A DNA stretch of 64,000 nt from Tetradesmus obliquus (lineage: Eukaryota > Chlorophyta > Chlorophyceae > Sphaeropleales > Scenedesmaceae), in NCBI GenBank assembly GCA_030272155.1, contig CP126197.1, positions 3,526,001-3,590,000 of the forward strand, given 5' to 3'. The position numbers and the translations under genes are program-made. Position 1 is the first letter of the stretch; the number at the start of each line of letters is the position of its first letter. This document shows positions 15,901 to 64,000 of the stretch, piece by piece. Under the pieces are notes generated by a model. The model searched no databases. It had not been told where the DNA came from and saw only the letters and a list, made by a program, of their open reading frames with translations.

Positions 15901-16800
15901 TGGTCCCCTACAGCTGACGCAGCAGCAGCTGGCCACACCACAGCAGCAGCAGCAGGCGGCCGGCAAGCAGCGGATGAGCGGCAAGAGGATGAGCGCCGTG
16001 CAGCCATGGGTGGGCTGATGGGAATGCTGCGACAGATTGGTGAACGGCTCGTGTGGGGGCTGCTGCGAGGCGGCGAGGAGGGTGGGGAAGAAGGAGAAGC
16101 GGGCAGTGAGAATGATGGTGAGGATGAAGATGGGCGGCAAGACGATGGTGCTGCTGGTGCTGCTGCTGCTGGTGGTGGTCGTGGTGGTGGTGTTGCGGCG
16201 GGCTACTGGGAGGATTTGCAAGGCGCAGCGGATGAGGCAGCACCTGGCAGAGGTGGGAGGGGGCAGGCTAGAAGTAGGAGCAGCCGGCACCAGCAGCACG
16301 AGGCAGATGAGGCAGTCGGTAGTGGCGGGAGTGGCAGGAGCAGCAGGGCCAGGGCAGCAGCTGCCGCTACTGCTGCTGCGGGCGCTGGTGCAGCACAAAG
16401 CCTTGTGCAAGGCAGCGCTGCCACGACTGTTCAGCAGCAACAGCAGCAGCAGCAGGGTGAGGGCACAGCAGCCGCAGGCAGCATGCGCGCTGCTGGCAGA
16501 CGCACGCGGAGCGCCAACAGGGCTAGCAGGCAGCAGCAGCGGCAGCAGCAGCCAGCACCGCCAGGCAATGCTGCTGCAGCAGCAAGCATTGCTGTGCAGC
16601 AGGCAGGTGGCATGCAGGCGGGGTTGATGCCTGGCTTGCTGCAGCCGGGTGGCGTGCCTGGTGTGCCGCAGCTGCAGCCTGTTGTGGGGCAGCCAACCAT
16701 GATGATACCTTTGGGTGGTGGGCAGGTGCTGTTCCCTGGGCCTCAGGTGCCACACACAGCGCAGCAGCAGCAGCATGAGGGCCAGCAAGGGCCGCTTTAG
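9267..16800 (+). CDS. DCAF6/DCAF8-type WD40 protein with giant low-complexity insertion
   Basis: Six exons (9267-9539, 9632-9715, 9877-10069, 10352-10465, 10699-15587, 15844-16800) keep phase and give 2169 residues. Residues 1-310 hold WD40 strands (SGGALCCSWDDAGVQLAVGTD, GHIQGVACAEFLP, ASGAEDGTIRCFDSR, TGGGDSLVRVYDVR, IASVAFDHTGQRLLASY). CFDSR and VYDVR resemble the WDxR/DWD box that binds DDB1. Residues ~1790-1880 hold the closing blades (FSGHRN, VSGADDGSLCVW, LLASCGTEPTVRLWSP). This split propeller fits DDB1-CUL4-associated factors DCAF6/DCAF8/WDTC1, substrate receptors of CRL4 ubiquitin ligases. Between them lie ~1,480 residues of poly-Q, poly-A, acidic patches and Arg-rich islands, nearly all in one 4.9-kb exon. 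The C-terminal ~290 residues are also low complexity and end in ...EGQQGPL. The DCAF family call is good; the exact orthologue is uncertain. Confidence 0.8.
10967..15400 (+). repeat. Expanded CAG/GCT-rich low-complexity block inside DCAF exon 5
   Basis: About 4.4 kb of coding triplet repeats, dominated by CAG and its phases GCA/AGC and the reverse CTG/GCT. Longest runs are near 12000-12035, 12476-12510, 12724-12757 and 12938-12978. It encodes Gln and Ala tracts broken by acidic clusters (near 11540-11680 and 15090-15200) and basic clusters (near 11270, 12440, 14730, 14920 and 15030). The block stays open in the WD40 frame throughout. Confidence 0.75.
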
Positions 16801-17201
16801 CGAGCAGCAGCAGGGATGCAATGTTCAGGTGGACGAATGAGCTGGCACCAAATGGTGTGCTTGGCATTCCTTGTGCTAAGTGCTTTTGAGTATGCATGGG
16901 TGGGTGTCAGTGGGGGCAGGCTCTGTAGTGAACAGCTCACAGCAGGTTCCTTACAATTACTTGGCTTGGTCACACCAGCTGAGTTGTATTTACGCTACGT
17001 GCATGGTCGCTTGCAAACGTTATTCTGTTTTGTTGTCGGCCGATGGCAACCGTTGGAAGTTCTATGGTTGATTGCAGGCTGAGGGTCCAGAGTATCGCAA
17101 GGTATTCCTAGTCGCAAGTGCTGTGTTCTTGCAGATTTCGCAGTTGATCGCCGTTACATGCTACTCGTACATTGCACGATCTGCTGCTATCATTTGAGAT
17201 C
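16801..17201. other. Spacer between DCAF gene and F-box copy 1
   Basis: 401 bases with no coding exon. The first ~100 bases (DCAF 3' UTR) have a diverged copy at 19907-19995. The last ~45 bases before the F-box ATG (CTCGTACATTGCACGATCTGCT) are conserved upstream of copies 2 and 3, and may be shared promoter or 5' UTR. A diverged CGGCCGATG..AACCGTT block at 17038-17056 also recurs upstream of the other copies. Confidence 0.5.
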
Positions 17202-19368
17202 ATGTGCACCCCCGCCAAACACAGCATGGACGAGATTCAGCAGATCGTGCGGCTCTGCCTCCCTCATTTGACGCCACAGGACATGGGCATGGTCAGATGC
17301 ACCTGCTCCGAGCTGCGTGCCATGAGCGTGTCCTGGCACGACCACAGCATGGACTTCCAGCTGGACGGGTCGGTCTCTGCCATCTACTGGCTGCATAAGA
17401 ACATCGTCTCCATGCAGCAGCTTTGGCTGACCATAAGCGTGAGTCTGCCGGCGAAAATGCTGCAGGACGTCATGGAGTCTGGCAGGTGAACGGCAGCAGC
17501 AGTAGGTACTGTGCAGCAGCAGCGTGAGCAAGCACTTGCTGGGCCGTGCTATCCCAAGACAAAAGTGATGAGTGTTATTTTTCAGCTCTAGGTGTTGGTC
17601 TAGCGGGAAGTCTGCACAGGCAGTTGCTTTTCAAGCGTAAAGACGCTGTTGTCAACGGTGTTGCCTTCTGCATTGTGTGGTGGTTGCATTACAATATGTG
17701 TTCTGCCAACGCTATGCCCAATACGATGTCCCATCAGCTAGCTTCAGCAGAAGTGTACGCATACATGCACGCTGAACATCTTGCTTTCAGGAAGCTGACC
17801 TATTTGAACATCAACAGCCAGCACATGGAGGTGCTGCTGTCCGTGCCGCCGAAGCTGAAGCACCTGGACGTGACAGACTGCAGCAAGCTGCGTGCACTGC
17901 CAGTGCTACCCCCTACGCTGCAGCAGTTGGACTGTGCAGGCTGTGGTGGAAGCGCGGTACTACCCGGCCTGGGGCTGCTGGGCAGCTTGAGCACCACTGC
18001 TGTCTCACGGCTCAACTGCAGCAACTGCACATTTAAGAGGATTCCACAGCTGCCGCCGAGCTTGGTCGAGCTGGATTTGGGCTGTTGCGGCAACTTGCTG
18101 CGGCTGCCGGCGCTGCCTGAAGGCCTCAAGCGCCTGAGCACCTACGCTTGTGGGGCGCTGACAGCGGTGAGCAGCAGCTGCAGGACAGTGCTCATATACG
18201 ATGGGATGCACACAACGTGTTGCCGCAACCAGGCAAAAATGATCTTCAAGCAGCCGTGTCCTACACTTGACGGGGCGTCTACACACAGCACTGCTGGAAA
18301 TTGCATTTGTGATCACAATTGCCACAGTTGCCACGGTTTGTGGCAGTTCGCAGTCACTGCAGGTATATCGCAGCAGATGCCAACCATGTGAGCATCCTGC
18401 AAAAGGCCTTGCTAGTGGTGCGCCTTCTATGCCAGAGTATGCACCCGATATCCTATCACCAGCATGCTCCCTCCCGGCCAACCAGGTGTTGACTGTCATG
18501 TGCGACTGGCTGTGTGTCTGCTCTGCTTCACCTTCGCTGCCTTTCGCCTTGCAGCTGCCGGAGCTTCCCACGTCACTGAGTTACCTGGACTGCATACGCT
18601 GCACATCGCTGAGCAGGCTGCCTCAGCTAGTGCACACAGGCCTCACTCAGCTGCTGTGCGATGACTGCTGGCTGCTGGAGGAGCTGCCAGACATGCCAGA
18701 CAGCCTTGAGGTGTTGCGTGTGACTGAAGCCGCTTACCTCACCAGGCTACCCAAGCTGCCTACAGAGAGCTTGAGGCAGCTGTGCATTGCCGGAACAGGA
18801 GGCGGCGTGCTGCCAGACTTTTTGCCGCGCCTTGAGGTGCTGGATTGCAGCGGCACACACATTCAGCGGCTGCCAGCATTGCCGAGCTGCCGGCGGCTGT
18901 ATGTAGGGAGCTGCGTGCAGCTGCAGCAGCTGCCGGAGCAGCTGCCTGCTGGCCTCACACTCCTGGACTGCACCGGCTTGTAGCTGCAGCAGCTGCCAGA
19001 GCCGCTACCTTCCAGCCTCACAGTCCTGAACTGCAGTGAATGCAGCTCGCTGCAGCAGCTGCCTGCGCAGCTTCCTGCCGGCCTCACGCACCTGGACTGC
19101 AGTTGGTGCAGCGCCCTGCAGCAGCTGCCTGCGCAGCTGCCACCCAAGCTCGAGTGGCTGGAGATCAACAACTGCACAGCACTGCAGCAGCTGCCAGAGG
19201 TGCCAGCCACTCTGCGTATGTTCAAAGTTTACGGCTGCAGCAGGCTGCGGCAGCTGCCTGACATATCCAAGTGCCCTTTGGTGCACGATGTTGAGCTGGC
19301 GGGGTGTGATGCACTCAAGAAAGTCCGCTTGGGTGGCGTCTCTCTGCTGTGGAGTGAGGAGGCTTGAA
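17202..19368 (+). pseudogene. F-box / Cys-rich LRR gene, copy 1 (nonsense and +1 shift in exon 3)
   Basis: Exons 17202-17485, 17791-18166 and 18555-19368. Exon 1 encodes an F-box-like module (VRLCLPHLTPQDMGMVRCTC followed by SEL, WHDHSMDF, WLHKN). Exons 2-3 encode LRRs of about 21 residues with LxxLPxxLPxxLxxLdCsgCsx, rich in Cys and Leu-Pro. Such proteins normally act as SCF ubiquitin-ligase adaptors: the F-box binds SKP1 and the LRRs bind substrate. An in-frame TAG at 18981-18983 interrupts the LRRs where copy 2 has a sense codon. A fourth A at about 19320 (AAGAAAAG versus AAGAAAG in copy 2) shifts the end of the frame. Products would stop after ~363 residues unless read through. It could still give a shortened protein, so 'pseudogene' is a judgement. 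Confidence 0.65.
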
Positions 19369-19579
19369 TTGGGCCGTTGTGGCAGCTTGGATGTTGCTGC
19401 ACAGCTTGCAGTGTGCCTTCATCAAAGGAGATTGGGCTGCAGCAGTGTTGCTGGGATGCTCTGTAGTGGCTATGTGGGCCGATTGCACAATGCGTGTATC
19501 AAAGACGGAGTGATATGAAATTGATTTGCTTGCTGGAGTAATCATGTGTCTCCGTTGTTGGGGCTGCTGCGTCCACATG

Positions 19580-19584
19580 TGTAA
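19580..19584 (+). terminator. TGTAA polyadenylation-type signal, F-box copy 1
   Basis: TGTAA lies about 210 bases after the copy-1 exon-3 stop, a usual 3' UTR length for chlorophytes. No experimental support. Confidence 0.35.
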
Positions 19585-19730
19585 GGCAGGCTCTACGCTA
19601 AGGACGTGTAGCTCTGCTCTGAGGTGACAACCCATTGACCTGGTTCAACCTGCTAGTGAAGGGCAGAATGTACTAGGTACATTTGCAAATGAAGCAGCAT
19701 TCAGTATGGTGGCGCTATGTGGGGTGATGA

Positions 19731-19848
19731 GTGCTGCAGCGGCGGCATGCCTGGTGCCTCTGCAGCCTGTGGCGGGGCAGCAGACGGTGATGATACCTTT
19801 GGGTGGCGGGCAGGTGCTGTTCCCAGGACCCCAGGAGCCACACACAGC

Positions 19849-19880
<32 letters not shown>

Positions 19881-19906
19881 GTGAGGGCCAGCAAGGGCCG
19901 CCATAG
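19731..19906 (+). pseudogene. Duplicated 3' end of the DCAF gene
   Basis: The stretch is a near copy of the last ~120 coding bases of the WD40 gene (16678-16800) plus its stop and 3' UTR. It keeps the same frame: TVMIPLGGGQVLFPGPQ, then PHTAQ, a Q tract and EGQQGPP with TAG. The source has MMIPLGGGQVLFPGPQ..EGQQGPL. The CAG run is longer here (about ten codons against four). It has no start and no propeller, so it is a tail fragment, probably carried with the F-box/LRR duplication. Confidence 0.8.
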
Positions 19907-20294
19907 TGAGCAGCAGCAGGACCGGACTTTTCAGAGAGTAAAATGAGCTGCTGCTGCTGGTTGTGCTTCGCATTCCTGGTGCTGTTTGCTTGAATTCCTT
20001 AGCGGTGAGTGCCATGCCATCTTCAGATGGTGCCAGGAGCCTCTGGTAACATCTTTCTCTACTGCATGGTTTCTGGTATGGTTTTAATGCCTTTTGCCGG
20101 CCGATGCAAGCCGTTTGAGGTCCTTGAGGCTGAGGGTCGAGGGCTCGCGATACTGCAACATTTGTCCAAGGAAGTCCGAGGAAGTCCGAGCCTAACCTGC
20201 CGTATTCACCAAGGTACTTTGGCTGCATAGCTTTCCGTGAACTTCGTAAGCATCCTCCCGTACATTGCACGACCTGCTACCATCAACTGAACTT

Positions 20295-20571
20295 ATGAGC
20301 ACCCCTGCCGAACGCAGCATGGACGAGATCGTGCGCCTCTGCCTTCCTTACTTGACCCCACAAGACATGTGCATGGTCAGATGCACCTGCTCCGAGCTGC
20401 AGGACATGAAGGTGTCCTGGCACGGCCACAGCATCGACTTCAAGCTGGACGGGTCGGTCTCCGCTACCTCCTGGCTGCACAAGAACATCGAGTCCATGCA
20501 CACGCTAAATCTTACCATGAGCACTACTATGCCGCGGAAGACGCTGCAGGACGTCATGGAGCGCGGCAGGC

Positions 20572-20637
<66 letters not shown>

Positions 20638-22416
20638 GCCCTAAGGCAAGTGACTACAGTGGCAGTGGACCTGATGACACCATTGCGCTGTCAGGACATA
20701 TCTTCCACCTGCCTGTGCTGCTGTTGAGTAGGGCAGAGCAGGCAGCTGTGATGTAGAACAGAGACGCCGAATGTCCTGCTCAAAACATTGACACGAGGTT
20801 TGTCACCTAGGCACAGAGAACAATGTCTGTGTCAAAACATGCTGTTGTTGCTCCGTGCCGTCGTTGCAGGAACTTGACCCACCTGACCATCAACAGCAAG
20901 GACAGTCAAGAGCTGCCGGCCTTGCCACCAAAGCTGCAGCAGCTGGACGTGCGGAAATGCAGCAAGCTGCGCACACTGCCAGCACTGCCCCCTACCCTGC
21001 GCCGGCTGCACTGCGGTGCAGTGGAAGAACTTCCAGAGCTGCCAGAGAGCTTGATTGAGCTGAGGATTGGGTGCAGCAGCGTGGAGCAGCTGCCGGCGCT
21101 GCCTGAAGGCCTGCAGCGCTTGACCACTTACGAGTGCTGTGCACTGACAGAGGTGAGCAGCAGCTGCTGAAGGGTGCTCAGGTGTGGTGAGGGCACAGTC
21201 TGTCATCAGGACCAGGCAAGAGTTTCAATGCAGTGCTCTGCCGTACACTTGACGAGCCGCCCATACGCAGCACCTCTTGCAAACTGCAAACTCCAAAAAA
21301 CTTTGCCCTACTGTCTTCATCATAGACACAGTTACATCATCGGCAGTTTCCCGCGGCCACCGAGGTTTGAGCAGCAGATGCAATCACCCGCACGAGACCT
21401 TTGTTTTATTTGCCTTCCATGCTTTTAATACATCATAAGCAAGGCATGTCAGCAACTATCGCCAGCATGCTTTCTCCTTGCCAGGGTTTCACTGATCATG
21501 TGTGCGTGCTGCACCTCTTCTGTTGTGTACCTCGCAGCTGCCAGAGCTGCCAAAGTCCCTGGCTTTTCTGGACTGCTCATATTGCGTGTCACTGGCGGCC
21601 CTGCCGCCGCTAGCGCACACAGGCATCACCCAACTGGTCTGCTCTGACTGATGGCTGCTTGAAGAGCTGCCAGACATGCCAGACAGCCTCGAGGAGCTGG
21701 AGGCATACTCACTCCCGGAACTAACCAGGCTACCTAGGCTGCCTGAAGATACGCTCAAGAAGCTGTGCATAAGTAACACAGCCATCGGTGATCTGCCTGA
21801 CTCGCTGCCGCTGCTTGAGGCGCTGAGTTGCGGCGACACACGCATTCAGCGGCTGCCAGCGCTGCCAAGCTGCCGGGTGCTGTACGTAAACGGTTGCGTG
21901 CAGCTGCAGCAGCTGCCGGAGCAGCTGCCTGCTGGCCTCACACGCCTGGGTTGCAGTAATAGCCCCTTGCAGCGACTACCAGCGCAGCTACCCGCCGGTC
22001 TCGAAACACTGGACTGCAGTGTATGCAGCGTGCTGCAGCAGCTGCCTGCACAGCTGCCTGCTGGCGTCACAGACCTGGACTGCAGCGGATGCAGCGCCCT
22101 GCAGCGACTACCAGCGCAGCTACCTGCCGGCCTCGAAGCACTCGACTGCAGTGGATGTAGCGCCCTGCAGAGCCTGCCTGCACAGCTGCCACCTAAACTT
22201 CAGCGGCTGGCGGTCAACAATTGCACAGCACTCAGGCAGCTGCCAGAGCTGCCATTTACTCTGCGTACGTTCGACGTCTACGGCTGCAGCAGCCTGCAGC
22301 AGCTGCCCGACATATCCAAGTGCCCTTTGGTGCACGATGTTGAGCTGTCAGGGTGTGATGCACTCAAGAAAGTACGCTTGGGTGGCTTCTCTCTGCTGTG
22401 GAGTGAGGAGGCTTGA
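20295..22416 (+). pseudogene. F-box / Cys-rich LRR gene, copy 2 (TGA in exon 3, GC donor)
   Basis: Exons 20295-20569, 20870-21152 and 21538-22416. Exon 1 gives the F-box-like module (VRLCLPYLTPQDMCMVRCTC). Exon 3 is otherwise open for 293 codons and has the cleanest LRR array of the three, including four near-identical LQxLPAQLPAGLxxLDCSGCSx repeats. One codon, 21649-21651, is TGA in CSD*WLLEELP; copy 1 has TGC there (CDDCWLLEELP). This is a single-base change. The first intron starts with GC (GGCAG then GCGAGC), and 63 bases of AGC repeats follow. Exon 2 is followed within 18 intronic bases by an in-frame TGA. Either a recent pseudogene or a gene that makes a short isoform. Confidence 0.65.
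20573..20635. repeat. (AGC)21 tract next to the GC donor of F-box copy 2
   Basis: About 21 AGC triplets lie immediately after the GCG of the intron-1 donor. The same place holds only three triplets in copy 1 and six in copy 3, so the tract expanded after duplication. If the GC donor were ignored it would be translated as poly-alanine. Confidence 0.8.
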
Positions 22417-23080
22417 ATTGGGCCGTTGTGGCTGCATGGATGTTGCTGCACACCTTAGGGCGCCCTCGTCAGGGCTGTGCTGCAGCAGTGTATACATGGA
22501 GTTCTTGATTGTGGTAGGGATGCGTTGTGGTTTCATGTGTGGGAGCCGAGCGCACACAAACAATTGTAGTGGTTTGCTTGGTGGTCTTGTAATCATGCAT
22601 GTGTATCTTGGCTTTGTTGGGTCTCTCGGCAGCAGTTCTAGACTGTGCTCAAGAATAGACGAGGTGATGCGAACCGTGTACCTGTTGTTCCTGGTGCTGT
22701 GAGCCCATTGGGTTGCGCGTGAGTGGTTGCACCTGACGCACCAAAGCAGCTGCTTTTACTAGTTGCAATGCCGCATGGTTGCATGTGGGGCCTCAAAAGC
22801 TTTCAAATCTGTTACTTGATATGTGTGGCGCATGCGAAACTTTGAAACATAGAGAAACATAGGTTGGTTTTCTGCATTGGCCGACGGCAAGCTTTTTGGG
22901 GTCCTTCGCTTGGCCGTTCGAGCTGGAGGCTGATGGTCCAAGGTAGTGCACAACCGTCCAAAAAAAGTCCGAGTCTCAACTGCCGGGCGCATAAAGTTGG
23001 ATCTGGCAACCAAGCTGTCATTGTTCTCATCAAATCCTACATCCTACTCGCACCTTGCACGACCTGCTACCGTTGAGATC
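22417..23080. other. Spacer between F-box copies 2 and 3
   Basis: Holds the copy-2 3' UTR, a TGTAA at 22588-22592 and the conserved upstream blocks of copy 3 (GGCCGACGGCAAGC near 22880, CCTTGCACGACCTGCT near 23055). No DCAF tail fragment is seen here, unlike before copy 2. No coding exon. Confidence 0.5.
22588..22592 (+). terminator. TGTAA polyadenylation-type signal, F-box copy 2
   Basis: TGTAA about 170 bases after the copy-2 stop, matching the placement seen for copy 1. Confidence 0.35.
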
Positions 23081-25137
23081 ATGTGCACCCCCGACAAAGG
23101 CAGCATGGACGAAATTCTGCAGATCGTGCGGCTTTGCCACTCTCGCTTGACACCAAAAGACATATGCATGCTGAGGTGCACCTGCTCCGAGCTGCGAGAC
23201 ATGAGGGTGTCCTGGCACAACCACAGCATCGACTTTGAGCTGGACGGGTCAATATCCGCTGCATCCTGGCTGCATAAGAACATCGTGTCCATGCGGAAGC
23301 TAAGCCTCACGATAAGCGTCAGCTTGCCGCAAAAGACGTTGCAAGAAGTCATGGAGGGCGGCAGGCAAGCAGCAGCAGCAGCAGCAGTATGCTGAACCTA
23401 AAGACTGCAGTGCCGGGCAGCGGTTCCTGATCAAATTGTTACTATAAACCTGTCAGTCTGCCTATGATGCCTTTTGGTGGGCTGGCAGCATAGGCATCTA
23501 TGCTGTAGAGTAGAGACACCGGAGCCTCTGCAAATCAGGTTGACCGATGGCATCTAATCTAGCCACAGAGCCATCAACTGCATCAGGACACACCATGACA
23601 TGTTGCACCGTGTCCTTCTTGCAGGAACTTGACTTGCCTAACCATCAAAAGCAAGCACGTTGAAGAGTTGCCATCCTTGCCATCACCGCTGGAGCAACTG
23701 CATGTGTGGGAATGCAGCAAGCTGCGCGCACTGCCGGCCCTGGCCCCCACGCTGCGTCAGCTGCGGTGTGCAGGCTGCACATCTCTGGAGATGCTCCCCA
23801 GCAGCCTCAGTGCCACTGCTGTCTCAGTGTTGGACTGCAACGGCTGCTGTTCGCTCAAGAGCCTTCCACAGCTGCCGCTGAGCTTGGTTCAGCTTGAGGT
23901 GGCCTGGTGCGTCAACCTGCTGCAGTTGCCAATACTACCTGAAGGTCTCCAGGGCCTTGGGGCATTCTGCTGCCAAGGGCTGACAGTGGTGAGCAGCAGC
24001 TGCTGAACAGTGCTTGTGTTATTGATGATGTGCGCAGCTTGTCCCAGTAAGTTAAGCACGATCTGCAGTGCAGTGCAGGGACTGGGTAGCTCTGTCCTGT
24101 ACTTGGCGGTTGCACTGCACACAGCAGCAGCTCTTGCAAACAGCATTGTGGCAGGCTTGTGTTTCCCTGTCGTGCTCTATCGGTTGAATGAGCAAACAAA
24201 CTTCACAGCATGACGCCGTACATCCAAAGATGACCAAGACAGGCCCCAGTATCATTCAAGGGTCCTTATTGACCAATCCCTGCACCCAAAGCAACAATCC
24301 AGCTACTTCTTGCCACCCTCTTTGCCAATGTCATACTCAAGTGTATGGCTGTCTTTCTGTCTGCTGCGTTTCCATTCGGCTCGTCGTATGCCTTGCAGCT
24401 GCCAGAGCTGCCAGCGTCCCTGCGTCATCTGAACTGCATGTGCTGCAGCTCGCTGCGCAAGCTGCCGCAGCTAGCGCACACAGGCATCACCCAGCTTGCC
24501 TGTGATGGCTGCTCACAGCTGCAGGAGCTGCCAGACATGCCAGACAGCCTCGAAGACTTGCAAGCGGTTGCACTGCCACAAGTCACCAGGCTTCCTAGGC
24601 TGCCTACAGACACGCTAAAGAAGCTATCAATCAGCAACACAGCAATCAGCCAACTGCCTAGCTCACTGCCGCATCTTGAGGTGTTGGAGTGCAGCGACAC
24701 ACCCATTCAGCGGATGCCAGCGCTGCCAAGTTGCCGCCAGCTGGGTGTGATGCGCTGTGAGCAGCTGCAGCAGCTGCCAGAGCAGCTGCCTGCACACTTC
24801 GATTCACTCAACTGCTTAGGATGCAGCTCTCTGCAGCAGCTGCCAGAGCAACTGCCTGTTGGCATCAGATGGCTGAACTGCAGCGGGACGCAGCGTGCTG
24901 CAGCAGCTGCCTGCGCGGCTTCCACCTAGGCTTGAGAAGCTGTGGCTCAGCCACTGCACAGCACTTGCGCAGCTGCCTGAGCCTCCAGCCACTTTGACGG
25001 AGTTGATTTTAGACGGGTGCAGCAGCTTAAGACACATGCCAAACCTCCACAAGTGTAGGCTGTGGCGCTTGTTGCTGCAGGGGTGCGTGGGGTTGAAAAT
25101 GTTCTACCTGGGTGGCTGCCGAGTGGAGCTGGGTTGA
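23081..25137 (+). pseudogene. F-box / Cys-rich LRR gene, copy 3 (+1 frameshift in exon 3, GC donor)
   Basis: Exons 23081-23364, 23625-23988 and 24399-25137. Exon 1 encodes MCTPDKGSMDE followed by the F-box-like module with WHNHSIDF and WLHKN. Exon 2 and exon 3 encode the LPxLPxxLxxLxC LRRs. Near 24885-24895 the repeat CSG-x-CS reads TGCAGCGGGACGCAGCGTG. This is one base longer than the TGCAGCGGATGCAGCGTG-type repeats of its paralogues. The original frame then ends at a TAG (24927-24929), while the +1 frame continues the LRRs to the stop at 25137 (LQQLPARLPPRLEKLWL onward). Exon 3 length is 3n+1, which confirms the shift. Intron 1 has a GC donor (GGCAG then GCAAGC). The 3' half has diverged more than in copies 1 and 2. 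Confidence 0.65.
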
Positions 25138-62857: not shown

Positions 62858-64000
62858 TCAGGTGTACGGCAGCAGTTTCAGCGACCGAAATTGGGACAAG
62901 TCAGGCAGCCGCTGCAGGTTGCTGCAGCCCCCGCACACCAACATCCGCAGTGTTGATGGCAGCTCTGGCAGCTGTTGCAGGTTGCTACAGCCCCCGCAGT
63001 CCAATACTTGCAGAGTGGGGGGCAGCTCTGGCAGCTGCTTTAGCGCTGTGCAGTTGCGGATCAGCAGCTGCTCAAGCCCAGACGGAAGCTGCGTAGGCAG
63101 CTGCTGCAGGGCGCTGCATCCACAGCAGTCCAGCACTTCAAGGCCTGCAGGCAGCTGCTCTGGCAGCTGCTGCAGCTGCGTGCAACCATACAGGAACAGC
63201 ACACGGCAGCTTGGCAGCCTCTCTGGCAGCTGCTGAATGGGTGTGGCGCCACACTGCAGCTCTTCTAGGCGTGGCAGGGAGCCAGGCAAATTGCTGATGG
63301 CTGTTGCAGTGACACACAGCTTCTTCAGCCTCTCTGTAGGCAGCCTGGGTAGCCTGGCGACTCGTGGGAGTGAGGATGCCTGTAGGTCTTCAAGGCTGTC
63401 TGGCATGTCTGGCAGCTCCTCCAGCAGGTCACAGCTGTAGCAGATGAGATGAGAGAGGCTCGTGTGTGCTAGCTGCGGCAGCTTCTGCAGGGACGTGCAG
63501 AGGGAAGAGTCCAGGTGACTGAGGGACTTCGGCAGCTCTGGCAGTTGCAAGGCATACAACAGCGGAGGTGAAACACGGCAGACACGAAGCCAGGCAAGCA
63601 AATTTATAGTCATAGGTATATAGCTGGCATCAACAACAGCCGTGCTTGGGTGACCCGTTCGGGCAAACGTGATAACACACATGACATCAGCAACTGCACA
63701 GCACTCAAGCAGCTGCCAAACCACCAACAACAATGCCTGCTCACGGCTGTCAGCGCCTCACAAGTGGAAGTGTTCAGGCGCTTAAGGCCTTCAGGCAGCG
63801 CCGGCAGCCGCAGCAAGCTGCTGCAGTTGACCACTTTCAGCTCGACCAAGCTCCGCGGCAGCCGTGGAAGGCTCTTGAACGTTTTGCAGTCGCTGCAGTC
63901 GAGCACTGAGACAGCAGTGGCGCTGAGGCTGATAGGTAGGTCCTGCAGAAACGCGCAGCCTGTGCACAGCAGCTGTCGCAGCGTAGGCGGCAGCGCTGGC
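62858..64000 (-). CDS. F-box / Cys-rich LRR gene, copy 4 (partial, broken acceptor)
   Basis: Exon 2 runs from the window edge to 63745 (LPPTLRQLLCTGCAFLQDLP to LKRLNTSTCEALTA). Exon 3 runs 63544-62858 and is open for 229 codons, with LRRs of the LQQLPEQLPAGLEVLDCCGC type, ending RLPDLSQFRSLKLLPYT. It is the same family as the three plus-strand copies but has a different C-terminus (no KKVRLGG-LLWSEEA). The acceptor before exon 3 reads TTGCAA then CTGCC, where the paralogues have TTGCAG then CTGCC. So the AG is mutated to AA. Retaining the 200-base intron truncates the protein after ~50 codons in exon 2's frame. The F-box exon lies beyond the window. Confidence 0.65.

Follow-up and report, generated by a model that had tools for sequence, protein, structure and literature searches.

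Genes of the plant F-box (FBX) superfamily are born in tandem and frequently die by frameshift or premature stop (Hua et al. 2011, PMC3030570). According to the parts of that survey used here, pseudogenes make up 4.3-31.3% per species, with the maximum in Brachypodium and 5/88 in Chlamydomonas (Table 1, PMC3030570); they are described there as being under relaxed selection, and the authors favour the pseudogene reading and reject an older idea by which frameshifts at the C-terminus would change the recruitment modules (Hua et al. 2011, PMC3030570). Here we analyse an array of three adjacent genes in the green alga Tetradesmus obliquus that code for an F-box-like N-terminus followed by leucine-rich repeats (LRRs), and the family to which they belong, called the F-box-like/LRR family below. 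The array lies in the window, by which we mean the whole stretch of 64,000 nucleotides that was analysed (C7:3526001-3590000, where C7 is contig CP126197.1); the genome was searched whole (104,662,953 bases, 17 contigs). In the open literature on Tetradesmus and Scenedesmus genomes and on plant and green-algal F-box pseudogenes we recognised no paper as describing this family.

A preliminary description of the window had reported that every copy of the array is broken in exon 3, and had offered two readings, namely parallel decay or selection for a short product made of the F-box and half of the LRRs. We suggest that ordinary birth-and-death decay of the F-box-like/LRR family is the best reading, and a probable one. 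The striking local pattern, with all array copies broken in one exon, dissolves when the whole family is counted.

Each array copy carries one lesion, in exon 3

Exon limits were set by splice sites and by a purpose-written frameshift-aware protein-to-DNA alignment, and they bear out the three adjacent paralogues with a common three-exon plan. Exon 1 is F-box-like, begins with MDE and ends with GR; exon 2 codes for LRRs; exon 3 is long and codes for Cys-rich LRRs (Table 1). The start that is conserved throughout the family is the inner ATG (17226, 20319 and 23105 in copies 1, 2 and 3), and an ATG at the position equivalent to 17202 is seen only in the two other array copies.

The three sister genes differ in the kind and the place of their lesions, which speaks for parallel, independent decay. 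The TAG at 18981 is present and is the sole stop or frameshift in the coding exons of copy 1. The same holds for the TGA at 21649 in copy 2, which occupies a site with a Cys codon in most relatives, and for the +1 shift in copy 3, claimed near 24890 and placed by us near 24891. A further insertion, of an A near 19320 in copy 1, proved to be absent: a single frame, common to copy 2, stays open from the TAG to the same C-terminus as in that copy, and hence copy 1 has one lesion, not two. All three are disabling changes in genes that otherwise stay open, one of the marks of a pseudogene. The truncation points fall at exon-3 codons 143 (copy 1), 38 (copy 2) and about 165 (copy 3), so that very different proteins would remain.

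Exons 1 and 2 had been described as intact in all three copies. Their reading frames are indeed open, but intron 1 starts with GC in copies 2 and 3, where most of the family has GT, and such introns may or may not be spliced. In copy 2 intron 1 opens with a long CAG run, and its retention would thus yield an F-box-like piece with a poly-Ala tail.

Table 1. Exons of the family members in the window and the duplicated tail of the neighbouring gene (positions counted from the first letter of the window)
Feature	Position	Strand	Remarks
Copy 1 exon 1, F-box-like	17226..17485	+	donor GTGAAC at 17486; in-frame ATG upstream at 17202
Copy 1 exon 2, LRR, open	17791..18166	+	
Copy 1 exon 3, Cys-rich LRR	18555..19367	+	TAG 18981-18983; same frame open on either side
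Second copy of the 3' tail of the gene that precedes copy 1	19732..19991	+	original at 16637-16885; about 250 bp, 75% identical
Copy 2 exon 1, F-box-like	20319..20569	+	GC donor (20570), CAG run after it
Copy 2 exon 2, LRR, open	20870..21152	+	in-frame length reduction relative to most copies
Copy 2 exon 3, Cys-rich LRR	21538..22416	+	broken: TGA 21649-21651
Copy 3 exon 1, F-box-like	23105..23364	+	GC donor (23365)
Copy 3 exon 2, LRR, open	23625..23988	+	
Copy 3 exon 3, Cys-rich LRR	24399..25137	+	broken: +1 frameshift near 24891
Copy 4 exon 3	62858..63544	-	open, shorter C-terminus; acceptor TTGCAA where most others have CAG
Copy 4 exon 2 (partial in window)	63745..64000	-	rest extends to C7:3590107; exon 1 at C7:3590401-3590673

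Lesions in the whole family follow exon length

A six-frame search of the genome places exon 1 at no fewer than 30 sites and gives at least 91 matches to exon 3, most of them at exon-1 loci and a few at other LRR genes. The 29 loci that were fetched cover all 30 exon-1 places, and 25 of them have three exons. The other four are not among the 25: L043 is an open gene in which exons 2 and 3 are fused, and three are fragments, namely L044 and L053, which consist of a frameshifted exon 1, and L048, which is cut short at either end. Seventeen of the 25 three-exon loci (68%) are broken. In 16 of these a coding exon holds a stop or frameshift, and in the remaining one, copy 4 near the right-hand limit of the window, an acceptor is lost. 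A single lesion is found in 12 of the 17, and three lesions each in L049 and L059. The remaining 8/25 are open throughout (L036, L037, L045, L046, L047, L050, L055 and L056, among which L037 and L047 have deviating C-termini). Apparent stops and shifts no more than 25 aligned codons from the end of exon 3 were regarded as variation of the C-terminus and left uncounted (L034, L037, L038, L041, L047, L049, L052, L054 and L057); with them included, L037 and L047 would pass from the open to the broken class. In L036 what looks like a shift precedes the start codon.

Loci with lesions in exons 1, 2 and 3 number 2, 7 and 11, against 4.1, 5.1 and 10.8 expected by total exon length (chi-square p=0.40, with the splice lesion of copy 4 excluded), and a loss specific to exon 3 is thus unsupported. 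In copies 1-3 exon 3 accounts for 55%, 61% and 52% of the coding length. The array mutations would sit in exon 3 because it is more than half of the coding length; with one random lesion per copy, the chance that all three fall there is about 0.17, the product of these shares, so that the pattern is not surprising. In a second array, of five genes (C2:6900076-6913893; L042, L039, L041, L040 and L037), three have their lesion in exon 2 and an exon 3 that is open up to a variable end; of the other two genes, one has a broken exon 3 and the other is open.

Two further loci on C2 have an unusual structure. In L036 (C2:7302709-7304094) exon 3 lies within an open frame of 495 codons with many similar LRR units, which is consistent with unequal crossing-over. 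L043 (C2:7230700-7233500) is rearranged: exons 2 and 3 form one open exon, and intron 2 and several repeats are lost.

Selection on the array copies and the timing of the losses

In the family tree copies 1 and 2 group at an ultrafast bootstrap of 100, copy 3 joins them at 79 and the deeper nodes are weak (values from an unrooted tree). The alignment thus weakly supports the grouping of the three copies. Copy 4 stands outside this group, together with L036 at a bootstrap of 67.

The ratio of nonsynonymous to synonymous substitution rates (dN/dS) was estimated with our own implementation of a codon model with branch classes, in which exon 3 was split into a first part and a repeat part. For this analysis the ends of exon 3 in L034, L047, L052 and L057 and a portion of exon 2 in both L041 and L059 were masked, and columns were retained up to a gap share of 40%. 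With one value per part for the whole family, dN/dS is 0.37 in exon 1, 0.48 in exon 2, 0.51 in the first part of exon 3 and 0.45 in its repeat part. On the three terminal branches of the array the corresponding values are 0.24, 0.56, 0.44 and 0.42, and four part values fit better there than one (log-likelihood, lnL, -24509.56 vs -24519.88, 3 extra parameters). In exon 1, the 0.24 of the array branches compares with 0.38 on the other branches.

Comparison of exons 1-2, pooled, with exon 3, named in the preliminary description as a check, gives 0.387 vs 0.430 on the array branches, which is no real difference (lnL -24519.55 vs -24519.88). Constraint was therefore not lifted from exon 3 in particular, and the lesions came late. 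Neutrality on the array branches is rejected (lnL -24552.87 vs -24519.88); the profile of dN/dS has its optimum at 0.41 and stays within 1.9 log units from about 0.33 to 0.51 (interpolated). One lesion corresponds to about 0.4-1.1% neutral divergence per site, under an assumed 0.05-0.2 indels per substitution, and the array terminal branches measure about 0.25-0.39 per site. The lesion equivalent is thus far below the terminal branch length, and hence the losses are late, within the last few per cent of it.

Origin of the array and its surroundings

The conserved upstream blocks of the preliminary description are found within the array: just upstream of the start, copies 2 and 3 are 79% and 87% identical to copy 1. 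The 21 other loci compared are 45-69% identical to copy 1 in this region (L049 was not placeable). Between copies 2 and 3 similarity begins just 65-68 bases ahead of the start codon. The gene ahead of copy 1 has a second copy of its 3' tail between copies 1 and 2 (Table 1), so that both copies have this block upstream; therefore, the duplication of copy 1 to copy 2 seems to begin inside the neighbouring gene, and the recurring block seems to mark the breakpoint.

At the right edge of the window copy 4 has its lesion at the exon-3 acceptor, where AG reads AA and the splice acceptor is lost. Ten neighbouring frames were scanned, and single frames among them exceed the Pfam cut-offs of the EBP2, DnaJ and papain-family protease models, which marks the DNA as eukaryotic. 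Base composition, the richness of coding sequence in CAG and the style of the introns would fit a chlorophyte, perhaps one of the Scenedesmaceae. A low-complexity open frame of 1710 codons, uninterrupted, adjoins the array.

What the proteins are

The identity of the LRR part is secure. Exon 3 of copy 2 after the stop scores 46.8 bits with LRR_4, against a cut-off of 27, and the LRR part is predicted as a repeat structure with a predicted local distance difference test (pLDDT) score of 87.4. Among PDB sequences the exon-3 LRRs match a YopM chain (9.9e-27), an RPP1 chain (7crb, 3.3e-21) and Roq1 (1.3e-18), and SlrP, YopM and RPP1 are among the matches listed for the predicted fold. We take the exon-3 repeats to be of the LPX-type class of leucine-rich repeats.

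For exon 1 the F-box identity is probable, as judged from profile scores. No exon-1 protein of the array exceeds the Pfam cut-off for an F-box domain: copy 1 has no match, copies 2 and 3 score 14.0 and 14.3 bits with F-box-like (cut-off 24.3), and copy 3 scores 17.6 with F-box (cut-off 20.5). Across the scanned members, matches at E<=1 occur in 10/23 for F-box-like (best 8.4e-05) and in 9/23 for F-box (best 3.3e-04). Alignment of exon 1 with 20 F-box-like sequences of the same genome by hhalign gives P=1e-4 and a probability of 57% over 24 columns (Neff 2.5). AlphaFold2 models of three exon-1 sequences are too poor for use (pLDDT 49.8), and no PDB sequence resembles exon 1 at E<=10. Two pattern matches to possible relatives on viral contigs were found, none confirmed, and the Pfam scan of the family pieces lists no ligase, TIR or NB-ARC domain.

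Control families

In-frame stops were counted in domain matches of other families of the same genome. They occur in 0/35 RRM, 0/11 ABC_tran and 1/85 F-box-like matches, so that 130/131 matches of the three families pooled are stop-free. Reassignment of a stop codon is unlikely, given the absence of stops in RRM (0/35) and ABC (0/11) matches and the fact that the stops of the F-box-like/LRR family lie at differing sites and include all three codons. As a method-matched control, 20 loci of other F-box families were fetched, of which 19 have a usable relative. In one of them, L088, a TAG lies near the start of the alignment, ahead of the F-box. In L091 and L095 an internal TAG aligns with Gln.

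Discussion

We suggest the following course of events. The F-box-like/LRR family, partly arranged in small tandem arrays, would undergo birth-and-death turnover. Copies 1-3 of the window would have been born by local tandem duplication, and the event that gave copy 2 from copy 1 would also have carried the 3' tail of the neighbour. Each copy would then have been under purifying selection over its whole length for most of its history, until one inactivating mutation per copy, late and independent, struck it. Copies 1-3 would now be non-functional. The intact members may serve an SCF-type ubiquitin ligase as the F-box subunits that recognise its substrates, and the putative binding face would be formed by the Cys-rich LRRs.

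Several results weigh against this course of events. Relaxed constraint was not detected on the terminal branches of broken copies: dN/dS in exon 1, exon 2 and the two parts of exon 3 is 0.34/0.47/0.46/0.40 there and 0.41/0.50/0.58/0.51 on the rest (lnL -24510.51 vs -24515.00, a gain of 4.5 for 4 more parameters). Long-lasting birth and death would be expected to give some relaxation and more copies with several lesions, and 12/17 have a single one. The absent relaxation is the least expected of our results and fits recent loss and assembly error alike; the lesions may be too recent for neutral evolution to show on terminal branches. The controls also contribute. Protein kinase matches have stops in 16/111 cases, which we think are due to matches entering introns, and this tally is counted neither way. 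In the method-matched control 8/19 loci show an event of some kind within the segment that matched, and several of these events are pairs of shifts that compensate each other; with an extended reference events are again found in 8/19, a partly different set. Any raw count may hence contain some noise from the alignment. In 3/19 control loci an internal TAG is flanked by homology before and after it (L091, L095 and L096, the last with weak homology past the stop). Broken F-box genes are thus not rare in this genome, and the F-box-like/LRR family stands above that level.

The main rival for a pattern of single lesions without relaxation is sequencing or assembly error in a repeat-rich, CAG-rich region, which we consider quite unlikely. 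It would account for the preponderance of single-lesion copies and the unrelaxed dN/dS in a repetitive stretch, and stops do occur elsewhere, in the kinase matches and in the three control F-box loci. However, only one array lesion is a frameshift, the other two being in-frame stops, almost all matches of the three pooled families are stop-free and the 1710-codon frame next door is unbroken, and L049 and L059, with three lesions each, look like older pseudogenes. A different account keeps the lesions and removes them from the message by extra introns inside exon 3. Acceptors of the YYYYNYAG type do exist within exon 3 of all three copies, and in copy 1 a weak GTGCG-type donor at 18656 is in phase with an acceptor ending at 19015, so that the TAG would be removed; intron 1 of copy 4 begins in the same GTGCG manner. 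Yet each exon 3 holds a single GTRAG donor. In copies 1 and 2 this donor lies at the very 3' end, past the lesion (19354 and 22403); that of copy 3 (24757) does not match in phase the sole listed downstream acceptor, itself ahead of the lesion. Moreover, the stretch to be removed from copy 1 is LRR coding sequence conserved in the family. With no good donor and a single weak in-phase option left in copy 1, extra introns are highly improbable.

Transcripts with stops in the last exon commonly escape exon-junction-dependent decay. Proteins of an F-box and partial LRRs could therefore be made from the array, and selection may keep them because they are useful. Open exons 1 and 2 in all three copies agree with this, as does exon 1, which on the array branches is the most constrained part and more so than elsewhere, in a fit clearly improved by part-specific values. 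But exon 1 is the most constrained part family-wide too, whereas exon 2, which also precedes the lesions and which such a protein would require, shows the weakest constraint on the array branches (0.56). Constraint persists in the repeat part of exon 3 (0.42), and exons 1-2 pooled are like exon 3 in dN/dS. Furthermore, lesions in the family track exon length, three of the five genes of the C2 array are broken in exon 2, and the array copies are truncated at widely different points. This half of the preliminary proposal is thus unsupported, and we regard selection for a short product as very unlikely.

A further reading is a recent collapse of the whole family. Two thirds of the members would then have been put out of action in the final few per cent of terminal-branch divergence, most of them by one lesion each, the binding function having become unneeded or harmful in this lineage or in the cultured strain. 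We hold this to be unlikely; if it is true, most copies should be open in wild relatives. With 68% of the loci broken and dN/dS not relaxed, the lesions should be polymorphic among strains, and such polymorphism would date the losses and reveal whether a recent event drove them.

Comparison with known systems

In fold and repeat type the LRRs of the family are like the LRR domains of the bacterial SlrP/SspH/YopM/IpaH proteins and those of plant TIR-NLRs (RPP1, Roq1). Unlike those, they are Cys-rich and follow an F-box-like N-terminus, encoded by a multi-exon gene of a eukaryote, and the similarity of the repeats does not show descent. Within the same genome the other F-box families (85 F-box-like matches) are alike in that some are clustered and some have in-frame stops with homology continuing beyond them. 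They differ in place, since 0/85 matches fall at exon-1 places of the F-box-like/LRR family, and in the frequency of internal stops, which is 3/19 there.

The family is also like the plant FBX genes. In both, members stand in tandem arrays, genes arise and are lost rapidly, and premature stops and frameshifts occur; in the parts of the survey used here, the same two readings were debated over the plant genes (PMC3030570). Unlike there, 17/25 members are broken here, a figure for one family that is not directly comparable with that for a whole superfamily, and the relaxation described for plants is not seen (PMC3030570). Taken together, the best reading of our analysis is that the decay of the F-box-like/LRR family would be the same process as that of plant F-box genes.

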